Of a stretch of 64,000 nucleotides of DNA, positions 49,291 through 53,571 are shown one piece after another. Below the pieces are notes generated by a model. The model was given only the letters and a program-made list of their open reading frames with translations. It ran no database searches and had not been told where the DNA came from. Position 1 is the stretch's first letter. Each line of letters begins with the position of its first letter. Source of the DNA: Natronomonas salsuginis (GTDB lineage Archaea; Halobacteriota; Halobacteria; Halobacteriales; Haloarculaceae); the NCBI RefSeq assembly GCF_005239135.1, contig NZ_QKNX01000002.1, positions 186,001 to 250,000 on the forward strand, given 5' to 3'. The position numbers and the translations under genes are program-made.

Positions 49291-50541
49291 CTACCGATCC
49301 AATACGGCGTCGGCCGCCAGCTTCCCGCTCTCCAACGCGCCCTGAATCGACGACCACCGGGTGTAATCGCCGGCCAAGAAGACCTCGCCGTCGGGCGCGT
49401 CGACGCTCGGCAGCTCCTCGCGGAAGCCGGGGGGCTGAGGAAACTGCGCGAAGTCGACGCGATCGACGGCAACGACCTCGAACTCGCCGAAGTGGTTCGC
49501 CGGAAACCACGCCGCGAGCGCGTCCCTGACGACTCGGCCGAGTTCGGCGTCGGACTCCTCGCGCGATCCGAGAAAGGTCGCGCTCAGGAGCTGTCTGCCC
49601 TCCGGAGCGTACTCGGACGCGGCGGCGCTCATCGGGGCGACGGTGTTCGGCTCGTCGTCGACCGCGTTGAGGACGATCCGCGATCCCGTGTCGAGCGACT
49701 GGTGTTCCGGGAGCGTGCAGTGGACGGTCACGCAGGCTTTCGATCCGGTGGGCGTGCCGACGCCGGTCAGTTCGCCGGCGGTTTTCGGGTCCGTTGCGAC
49801 GACGACGGCGTCGGGTGATCGGGGGCCGGCGCTGGTGTCGACGCGAGGGCCGTCGGCGTCGATGGCGGTGACGGCGGCATCCGTTTCGATCGTCGCGCCG
49901 GCCGACTCTGCGCGCGCGCGGAGCTGGTCGGCGATCGCGCCCATGCCGTCGGCGGGGACCACTGTTTTGCCGTCCGAGAGCGCCTTGAACGTGTACTCGA
50001 AGACCGATGCCGACGTGCCCAGCGACCGATCGAGCGTGATTCCGCCGTAGAAGGGTGCCGCGAAGCGCTCGACGAACGCCGTGGAGAACCCCCGATCGGC
50101 GAGGTACTCCAGAATCGTCAGTCCACCGTCGTCATCGAGGAGCTCCGTCCAGCCGACGCGGTCGAGCTCCCGCTGCAGCTGAAAGAGCCGGAGTTTGTCC
50201 GCGGTCCGGACGTCGCGGTTCAACAGCGTGGGAAGCGCTGACCGGGGAGCGGCGAGCGGATCCGCGAGCGTCGAGCGGCGGTTCGGTCGGGCGATCGTCG
50301 CCCCAAGGGCGAACGGCCGAAGATCGAGCGCGTCGTAGTCGAGCTCCCGGCGCGCCGCGGGATAGGCGGTGGAGAGCACCTGGAACCCCCGGTCGAGCGT
50401 ATACCCGTCGACGACGCGCGAGCGGACTCGGCCGCCGACGCGCGGTTCGGCCTCGAACAGTTCGACTTCGGCCCCCGATTCAGCGAGGTGGCGCGCGGCG
50501 ACGAGTCCGGCAAGCCCACCACCTGCGACGGCGACGTGCAT
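49291..50541 (-). CDS. FAD-dependent oxidoreductase (amine oxidase / protoporphyrinogen oxidase-like)
   Basis: 416 residues. The FAD-binding motif is AGGGLAGLVAARHLAESGAEVELFEA, followed by GGRVRSRVVDGYTLDRGFQVL. The C-terminus has the second FAD-binding segment VFLAGDYTRWSSIQGALESGKLAA. The closest general types are NAD(P)-binding amine oxidases and phytoene-desaturase-like or protoporphyrinogen-oxidase-like proteins; there is no adjacent carotenoid or haem gene. The substrate is therefore unknown. The ATG at 50541 starts directly before the FAD motif. It is divergent from the threonine-synthase-like gene, 101 nt between starts. Confidence 0.9.
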   Translation of the reverse strand: MHVAVAGGGLAGLVAARHLAESGAEVELFEAEPRVGGRVRSRVVDGYTLDRGFQVLSTAYPAARRELDYDALDLRPFALGATIARPNRRSTLADPLAAPRSALPTLLNRDVRTADKLRLFQLQRELDRVGWTELLDDDGGLTILEYLADRGFSTAFVERFAAPFYGGITLDRSLGTSASVFEYTFKALSDGKTVVPADGMGAIADQLRARAESAGATIETDAAVTAIDADGPRVDTSAGPRSPDAVVVATDPKTAGELTGVGTPTGSKACVTVHCTLPEHQSLDTGSRIVLNAVDDEPNTVAPMSAAASEYAPEGRQLLSATFLGSREESDAELGRVVRDALAAWFPANHFGEFEVVAVDRVDFAQFPQPPGFREELPSVDAPDGEVFLAGDYTRWSSIQGALESGKLAADAVLDR

Positions 50542-50642: not shown

Positions 50643-51821
50643 ATGAGTGCGTTCGAGGGATTTCATTGCACCGACTGTGGGGCGACGACCGACGGCGATG
50701 ACGCGACGCGCTGTCCCGACTGTGGCGGCTCCTTGGATGCCCGCTACGATCTGGACGAACTCGACCTGTCGCGCGAGATGCTCGCCGAGCGCTCGGGCGG
50801 TTGGAAGCACCGCGAGCTGTTGCCGGTCGTCCCGTCGGGAATGGGCGAGGGCGACACCCCGCTCGTCGAGGCCCCCCGGCTGGCCGACGAACTGGGCATC
50901 GAGCGCGTTCTGATCAAAAACGAGGCGCACAACCCCACCGGATCGGTCACCGATCGGGGGCTGGCGCTCGTCGCCGAGACCGCCGCCCGCGCCGACGCGG
51001 ACACCCTCGCGCTGGCGACGAGCGGCGACGGTGGGCAATCGGCGTCGGCGTACGCCGCTCGCGCCGGGCTGACCTCGCGATCGTTCGTTCCGAGTCGAAC
51101 ACCGTTCATGGCCAAGGCGATGATCAACGTCCACGGGGGCGACATGCGTGTCGTTGAGGGGCGATTCGACGATGCGCGGGAGGCCTACGAGGACGCGAGA
51201 GAGTCGATGCCAGCGGCCGAAAAGGAGACGTGGTTCCCGGCCGGCCCGTTCGACTCGCCGTTTAGACACGAGGGAGCGAAACCGATCTACTACGAGGTCG
51301 CCGAGCAATTGGAGTGGACGGCGCCCGACGCCATCGTGACACCGGTCGGTCACGGTGCCACGCTCGCCGGCATCTGGAAGGGCGCGCGGGAGTTCGAATC
51401 GGTCGGCGTCATCGAGGGTACGCCCACGTTGTACGCCGCCCAGCCGGACGGCTGTGCGCCCGTCGTCGAGGCGCTCGAAACCGACGCCGATCCCGTGCCG
51501 TGGGAGGTTCCGGACACGGTCGTCGGCAGTCTCGAGATACCCGATCCGGCGGGCGGCCTGGCCGCGGTCGAGGCGGTTCGCGCCAGCGGCGGGTCCGGGG
51601 TCGCCGTCGACGATCAGGACCTCCTCGACAGCGCCGCGACGGTCGCCCAACACGGGGGGCTCGAGATCTCTATCGCCTGCGGAGCGGCCACGGCCGGCGC
51701 GTGGGAACTCGCCGAGAACGGCGCGTTCGACGCCGACGACACCGTCGTGCTTCTCAATACCGCGGCCGGAAACAAGGACGCCGATATCATCCGTAGTCGG
51801 CTCATGAGCCGCGGGATCTGA
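50643..51821 (+). CDS. Threonine synthase-like protein lacking the PLP lysine
   Basis: 392 residues. An N-terminal zinc ribbon (Cys9, Cys12, Cys24, Cys27) is followed by a fold-type II PLP-enzyme body: EGDTPLVEAPRLADELG, KNEAHNPTG, VTPVGHGATLAGIWKG. Where threonine synthase and relatives have SFKDRG, with the Lys that binds PLP, this protein has SVTDRG, with Thr103 in that place. The following PLP-phosphate loop is also changed: TSGDGGQSASAYAARAG instead of SSGNTG. The protein keeps the scaffold but probably cannot form the internal aldimine. It may be regulatory, structural, or bind an amino acid. The codons at 50943-50957 read TCG GTC ACC GAT CGG, so the change is in the DNA as given. Confidence 0.85.
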   Translation: MSAFEGFHCTDCGATTDGDDATRCPDCGGSLDARYDLDELDLSREMLAERSGGWKHRELLPVVPSGMGEGDTPLVEAPRLADELGIERVLIKNEAHNPTGSVTDRGLALVAETAARADADTLALATSGDGGQSASAYAARAGLTSRSFVPSRTPFMAKAMINVHGGDMRVVEGRFDDAREAYEDARESMPAAEKETWFPAGPFDSPFRHEGAKPIYYEVAEQLEWTAPDAIVTPVGHGATLAGIWKGAREFESVGVIEGTPTLYAAQPDGCAPVVEALETDADPVPWEVPDTVVGSLEIPDPAGGLAAVEAVRASGGSGVAVDDQDLLDSAATVAQHGGLEISIACGAATAGAWELAENGAFDADDTVVLLNTAAGNKDADIIRSRLMSRGI

Positions 51822-52931: not shown

Positions 52932-52940
52932 AATATTTTT
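52932..52940 (+). promoter_or_regulatory. TATA box of the antitoxin-toxin pair
   Basis: AATATTTTT lies 26-34 nt upstream of the antitoxin ATG at 52966 in a locally AT-rich stretch; it predicts a leaderless or nearly leaderless bicistronic mRNA. Confidence 0.55.
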
Positions 52941-52965
52941 GTCTGTACCCACAGTAGATCACAGT

Positions 52966-53196
52966 ATGTCCGATGCGACACTCGACGACCGAGGGCGTCT
53001 GACGCTACCAAAGGAGATGCGCGAGCGGTACGGGGACCGCTACCACATCGTCGAGGTTCACGACGCGATCAAGTTGATCCCGGTCGCCGACGACCCGCTC
53101 GACACACTCCGAGACGAGTTTTCTGGCGTTGAGAAGACGGCAGAGGAACTTCTCGATGAGGCTCGCGAAGCGGCGCTGGACGAGGCGGGACGCTGA
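52966..53196 (+). CDS. AbrB/MazE-type antitoxin (VapB-like)
   Basis: 76 residues. The N-terminal 45 residues form a SpoVT/AbrB swapped-hairpin DNA-binding domain (TLDDRGRLTLPKEMRERYG, VEVHDAIKLIPV). The C-terminal helix (KTAEELLDEAREAALDEAGR) is the expected toxin-binding part. It would neutralise the PIN toxin encoded immediately downstream and repress the shared promoter. The start at 52966 is favoured by a TATA element; a TTG at 52939 is the only earlier option. Confidence 0.9.
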   Translation: MSDATLDDRGRLTLPKEMRERYGDRYHIVEVHDAIKLIPVADDPLDTLRDEFSGVEKTAEELLDEAREAALDEAGR

Positions 53197-53571
53197 ATGT
53201 ACGCGGAAACCGATTTCCTCCTCGCGCTCATCAAAGACGAAGGCTGGCTCGGCGAAGGTGCCGAAACGGTGTACCGAAATCATCGTGACGAACTGTGGAC
53301 GTCGCAGTTTACGCTCATTGAACTACTCTTGGTCGCCTACCGGGAAGACAGGGATACGGAACGAGTCGTCGCCAACGCCGCCAATCTCGTGGATGTTCGC
53401 GGCGACGTTGAGACGGTCGTCACGGCGGCAGCGTACGTCGAGGATGACGAGTTCACGCCCTTCGACGCGCTTCACATCGTCGAGTCGGACGGTGACACCA
53501 TCGTCTCCAGCGACGGCGCGTATGAGGGGTTCGCCCCTCGCCTCGACCTGAAGAGCGTGACCGAGGAATAA
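53197..53571 (+). CDS. PIN-domain ribonuclease toxin (VapC-like)
   Basis: 124 residues of the PIN fold. The four acidic metal-binding residues are recognisable: Asp6 (MYAETD), Glu42 (TLIELL), Asp90 (PFDALH) and Asp106 (SSDGAYE). It is a Mg-dependent RNase, presumably cutting tRNA or another RNA to slow growth when unchecked. Its ATG directly follows the antitoxin TGA with no gap. All catalytic residues are intact, so the pair is likely functional. It lies 42 nt upstream of rfcL on the same strand, so read-through into rfcL is possible. Confidence 0.9.
   Translation: MYAETDFLLALIKDEGWLGEGAETVYRNHRDELWTSQFTLIELLLVAYREDRDTERVVANAANLVDVRGDVETVVTAAAYVEDDEFTPFDALHIVESDGDTIVSSDGAYEGFAPRLDLKSVTEE

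Follow-up and report, generated by a model that had tools for sequence, protein, structure and literature searches.

In textbooks, PLP enzymes exemplify proteins whose active-site lysine is indispensable. Within fold type II (the tryptophan-synthase-beta fold), the eudicot pseudoenzyme TSB-like, a tryptophan synthase beta homologue, has lost its own catalysis and allosterically activates a partner enzyme; it carries two key active-site substitutions (E190A and D386E) and has been handled with added PLP (PMC12727527). This precedent indicates that fold type II can serve as a partner-activating pseudoenzyme. In trypanosomatids, a catalytically dead deoxyhypusine synthase paralogue is reported to be retained as the activator of a live partner (PMC3663545). 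Among the haloarchaea, one of the H. volcanii genes annotated as threonine synthase, thrC3 (HVO_2969), yields an auxotroph (PMC4300041). Our literature searches, which covered few subscription journals and dealt with Natronomonas, with PLP pseudoenzymes and with thrC paralogues of haloarchaea, brought up no description of the family reported here or of recurrent loss of the Schiff-base lysine in haloarchaeal ThrC-like proteins.

Here we analyze a homologue of threonine synthase (ThrC) that lacks this lysine. It is encoded in the window, a stretch of 64,000 nucleotides from the genome of Natronomonas salsuginis (2.9 Mb, 99.9% complete). Like TSB-like, the protein and its lysine-less haloarchaeal relatives are fold type II PLP-enzyme homologues that appear to have been kept after losing catalysis. 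They differ from TSB-like in having lost the entire cofactor site and in that our analysis turned up no partner; moreover, TSB-like is one paralogue, whereas in haloarchaea orthologues at a single locus have undergone the loss repeatedly. The trypanosomatid protein is a looser parallel, having an unrelated fold and an established partner, in contrast to the haloarchaeal protein.

A threonine synthase fold without the Schiff-base lysine

The open reading frame at 50643–51821 (+ strand) encodes a ThrC-like protein of 392 aa. It shares with threonine synthases (EC 4.2.3.1; TIGR00260, PRK08197) fold type II, the zinc ribbon, the NPTG..DRG motif and, by alignment, the substrate-side arginine and lysine. 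Its N-terminal part corresponds to the zinc ribbon of ThrC, and PALP is the sole Pfam domain (219 bits, residues 68–373); the lack of a DNA-binding domain distinguishes the protein from PLP-fold transcription regulators of the MocR type. A phmmer search of solved structures placed threonine synthases on top (2zsj, 1uim and 2d1f). Threonine synthases are also the solved folds nearest to the AlphaFold2 model, which is confident along its full length (pLDDT 95.3, pTM 0.94).

Residues 97–106 translate as NPTGSVTDRG. Alignment to 2zsj and 1uim sets Thr103 (codon 50949–50951, + strand) against the SFKDRG lysine of the solved threonine synthases, which is K61 in T. thermophilus numbering (1uim). The alignment to 1uim also equates residues 127/129 with T85/N87, 208 with R160, 236–240 with the phosphate loop 188–192, 296 with A240 and 373 with T317. 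By this correspondence with T. thermophilus ThrC, in which R160 is the substrate-phosphate residue, column 296 would be the ring-stacking position and T373 the pyridine-nitrogen partner.

We compared 153 family members, of which 78 have lysine at column 103 (K+) and 75 do not (K−). The K+ cofactor site is uniform, with F102 and K103, SAGNAG, K212, YPTGGGVG, G296 and DPGAS, and the window protein departs from it at several places (all features on the + strand). Its "asparagine loop" (residues 126–132; 51018–51038) reads TSGDGGQ, where the K+ form is SAGNAGQ; columns 127, 129 and 130 are altered in K− lineages. Alanine at 212 (51276–51278) replaces a second lysine found in 78/78 K+ members versus 3% of K−. 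The PLP phosphate loop (234–240; 51342–51362) is PVGHGAT instead of PTGGGVG, and G237 is left in 1% of K− members. Residues 296–305 (51528–51557) are SLEIPDPAGG instead of GIEIPDPGAS; G296, G303, A304 and S305, which vary little or not at all among K+ members, are altered in K−, where 303–305 most often becomes AGG. On the other hand, the zinc-ribbon cysteines C9, C12, C24 and C27 (50667–50723) are intact in the window protein and invariant in the K+ members and in Natronomonas. K158 (51114–51116; K116 of T. thermophilus ThrC) stands at 99% in both K+ and K−, and R208 (51264–51266) is kept in 100% of K+ and 95% of K−. The first-pass annotation, which had read the site as lysine-less, the PLP phosphate loop as altered and the zinc ribbon and fold as intact, was thus correct on each point. 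The protein ends in a family-specific tail, DIIRSRLMSRGI (51783–51818), that is missing from canonical ThrC; its residues R384, S385, L387, M388 and G391 are conserved in 96%–100% of K− members.

Sequencing or assembly error, or chance, can be ruled out as the source of Thr103, since all Natronomonas copies that cover column 103 are K− (T, V, A or L) and the loss is common to the whole genus. The protein also falls under both curated ThrC cut-offs, TIGR00260 (141.6 vs. 167.1) and PRK08197 (281.2 vs. 303). Judged by the lysine, the phosphate loop and these cut-offs, it is not a threonine synthase and resembles a pseudoenzyme of that kind. Three K− members (L012, L093 and L138) score above the PRK08197 "threonine synthase" cut-off of 303 (349, 354 and 316 bits) without the lysine, so this cut-off alone is no test for it, and lysine-less proteins that pass are probably named as enzymes in databases.

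A canonical threonine synthase in the same genome

The genome encodes five PALP proteins, namely the window protein, a canonical ThrC, IlvA (threonine ammonia-lyase), a cysteine-synthase-like protein and TrpB. The canonical ThrC, which the first-pass annotation had suggested looking for, lies at G000:C1:844892-846013 and scores 292 bits against TIGR00260 (cut-off 167). In our tree, canonical haloarchaeal ThrC clusters with its counterparts from other archaea in the phylum, and the window's family forms a fully supported haloarchaeal clade of its own, apart from canonical ThrC. Threonine synthesis is therefore covered elsewhere, and we can rule out that the window protein is the cell's only threonine synthase. 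Other haloarchaeal ThrC-like paralogues (L168, L170, L064 and L065) kept the lysine and have odd cofactor loops (TVSHGN; GVLKDRA with MGDGCT).

Repeated loss of the lysine at one locus

We drew family members from 146 genomes belonging to the order and 20 belonging to the genus, and added others picked by means of a DNA-pattern census that covered 392 genomes. Lysine occupies column 103 in 0/75 K− members; the residues found there are T, A, L, V, R, S, D, E, H and others. Both states occur within the window's own family, f1: the lysine is present, at the same locus, in g58, g63, g65 and one g7 genome, and absent in g1, g3, g4, g6, another g7 genome and one g59 genome (TFEDRG). Almost all of the genus Natronomonas has kept the gene; it is missing from some genomes of the order and is thus dispensable there.

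One conceivable history is a single ancient K− paralogue clade, and the first-pass annotation had proposed asking whether lysine-less orthologues form a clade under purifying selection. The orthologues proved to be widespread and constrained, but the single clade did not stand. It was rejected by an AU test on an alignment with all cofactor-site columns taken out (p 2.7e-8, at a cost of 188 log-likelihood units), and a 41-row K− clade seen in our first careful tree, which we do not claim, dissolved with denser sampling. On the denser 106-row tree, parsimony gives six changes, and well-supported branches force at least four. Regain of the lysine is implausible, as all K+ sequences agree at a dozen cofactor-site positions; with losses only, the count is eight on the maximum-likelihood tree and 8–11 across 100 bootstrap trees, the exact number being soft, given weak support for several of the deeper branches and a bootstrap that had not converged. 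Several losses are recent, with a K+ sister in the same genus (L011/L012/L015 vs. L022, L093 vs. L080 and L095 vs. L141). These trees show some eight or more independent losses of the lysine within the haloarchaeal ThrC-like family.

The divergent neighbor of the window gene (49291–50541, − strand) encodes an FAD-dependent oxidoreductase of the HpnE/phytoene-desaturase-like type, with weak similarity to HpnE and carotenoid desaturases. At the 46 K− and 27 K+ loci with both genes on the DNA retrieved, it and the ThrC-like gene are always arranged head-to-head, with no exception seen; at the remaining loci the oxidoreductase was not found on that DNA. Many f4 genomes have both states, often with the K− copy at the oxidoreductase locus and the K+ copy elsewhere. 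The shared locus of K+ and K− copies implies that many K− genes are in-place orthologues and not a separate dead paralogue. Second K+ copies away from the oxidoreductase locus (L109, L113, L104, L111, L139, L140, L158, L159, L058 and L059) occur in f4, g59 and two Natronomonas-like genomes and form their own clade, which suggests a mobile or transferred paralogue.

A metallophosphoesterase gene recurs near K+ and K− copies alike, as do genes for the FAD oxidoreductase and for an MntR-like regulator, a membrane protein and a LysE/RhtB-like exporter, the last three lying 3′ of the ThrC-like gene in both kinds of genome (L106:4219-4920, L100:171-833 and equivalents). We set this neighborhood aside as a pathway clue, since its recurrence around both states amounts to conserved gene order. 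No thr gene is linked to the ThrC-like gene at the locus, and the neighbors, which show no obvious pathway, yielded no partner protein; the FAD oxidoreductase is a possible functional partner. The first-pass annotation had suggested a regulator that senses threonine or homoserine phosphate. This would agree with the kept counterparts of the substrate-side lysine and arginine, but finds no support in the domain content, which includes no DNA-binding domain, or in the neighborhood, which includes no thr gene. Further along the window (52939–53571, + strand), AbrB-like and PIN-like small genes stand in tandem, with the look of a VapBC-type toxin–antitoxin pair, just before the RFC large-subunit gene.

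Changes that accompany the loss

Loss of the lysine goes together with changes in cofactor-site columns that are otherwise invariant (e.g., A127T, K212A, G237x, G303x and A304G). Columns 103, 127, 212, 215, 237 and 303 are altered in all, or all but one, of the 12 lineages that we tabulated, and columns 304 and 305 in nine. The overlap between lineages is greater than expected: of ∼95 columns near-invariant in K+, the g11 group (three members) changed 11 and L093 changed eight, with five in common versus 0.9 expected (P 4e-4), and most other lineage pairs behave similarly. The end residues are alike at some positions (threonine at 127, glycine at 304 and 305 in most K− lineages) and vary by lineage at 103 and 237. 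This pattern is in keeping with the cofactor having been released first and the pocket then filled or reshaped convergently. Spread of a single K− cassette by recombination would be another route to shared changes, but L093 and L012 show no clear recombination tract; L138 is too diverged to judge.

A substitute for the lost lysine could in principle come from another lysine, as the first-pass annotation had warned. No newly conserved lysine column appeared among the 75 K− members: K92, K158, K213, K246 and K378 are common to K+ and K−, and K55 is a Natronomonas-level feature outside the PALP domain. Internal-aldimine PLP chemistry is thus almost certainly absent from the K− protein. Holding PLP non-covalently, so as to buffer or sense it, would do without a lysine, and T373 is indeed kept in most Natronomonas copies. 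We nevertheless regard this as very improbable, because the phosphate loop is broken, with almost no K− member retaining its central glycine; column 296 is E or S in several K− lineages, and T373 itself is gone in several.

Constraint on the lysine-less proteins

Much of the protein outside the cofactor site is preserved, with 48/100 columns conserved in K+ still at least 90% identical in K−, family-specific ones included. The residues kept in K− and common to ThrC are K92, D104, R105, K158, R208 and Q267; Q132, R152, N162, R174, C271, E298, E341 and the R-S-x-L-M-x-x-G motif of the C-terminal tail are family-specific and kept in at least 95% of K− members. Among the kept residues, several of D104, R105, Q132, K158, R208 and Q267 are expected near the pocket, and the replacements at the cofactor site converge on small or polar residues. 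Both observations would suit an enzyme with new, PLP-independent chemistry in the emptied pocket, such as acid/base catalysis or phosphate-ester lysis on an ancestor-like substrate. Such an enzyme would be expected to share a new catalytic group and none is visible, as no one polar residue is fixed across K− at column 103 (T, A, L, V, R, D and E among others) or 237 (H, S, T, D, E and R), and we consider this explanation unlikely.

The K− genes could also be in slow decay, the enzyme being redundant beside canonical ThrC and its remnants having survived in many lineages only by chance. In favor of this, branches leading to K− members are longer and nearest pairs give a higher dN/dS (0.26 in K− vs. 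0.15 in K+), reaching 0.65 in a few K− pairs; zinc-ribbon cysteines are also gone in half or so of the K− copies in f4 (L101, L106, L108 and others), and the absence of the gene from some genomes points the same way. Between two Natronomonas genomes, dN/dS is 0.085 for canonical ThrC and 0.22 for the window protein. But these values are far below 1, and in filtered all-pairs comparisons the two states are close (0.19 in K− vs. 0.18 in K+), so that K− genes are constrained, slightly less than K+ genes. Decay is also hard to square with the open frames of practically all K− copies, with near-universal retention in Natronomonas and with family-specific columns at 95%–100% across the 75 K− members, and random decay would not predict the similar end residues of separate losses (A127T, A304G and S305G). 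As a general account, decay is therefore improbable; the faster evolution of K− genes and the lost zinc ribbon in part of f4 suggest that some K− lineages may be decaying.

The alignments establish that a protein otherwise intact and constrained has lost the Schiff-base lysine along with the remainder of its cofactor cup. An essential lysine lost with no replacement, together with purifying selection (open frames, dN/dS about 0.19–0.26), characterizes a pseudoenzyme. The description "conserved pseudoenzyme," offered in the first-pass annotation, has good support: lysine-less orthologues are widespread and constrained, the genome encodes a canonical ThrC at another site, and no further lysine has become conserved. 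The K− protein very probably still has a function.

Discussion

We think it probable, from comparative sequence evidence, that the window protein is a PLP-free, non-catalytic descendant of a haloarchaeal ThrC-like enzyme, still at the ancestral locus and with a retained PLP-independent role. The gene was not discarded despite repeated loss of the lysine, so the protein probably has a job that does not need PLP chemistry. The likeliest form of that job would be the one of a small-molecule-binding or allosteric partner subunit, a reading suggested by sequence and by analogy to which we give a little less than an even chance.

The simplest course of events would be that the ancestral ThrC-like enzyme already had a second, PLP-independent role before the losses. 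Catalysis would have been dispensable beside canonical ThrC, and the PLP role could then have been dropped, with K− lineages retaining the PLP-independent role alone. This role would use the substrate-side pocket (K158, R208, D104/R105, Q132 and Q267) plus a family-specific surface or the C-terminal tail, and its working mode might be likened to that of plant TSB-like acting on TSA. More tentatively, the second function may have been there from the start and outweighed catalysis: at least eight lineages would then have emptied the site and arrived at a similar pocket (A127T, A304G and S305G) in the service of a shared ligand or allosteric role.

If so, nature would have run one experiment several times over, the conversion of a PLP enzyme into a sensor or subunit. 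The lysine was lost repeatedly among orthologues at the same locus, in some cases recently. Recent losses with K+ kin in the same genus supply matched K+/K− pairs, in which the path from enzyme to pseudoenzyme, the changes that accompany it and the function that remains can be followed. Haloarchaea include culturable, genetically tractable members, which makes the question directly testable.
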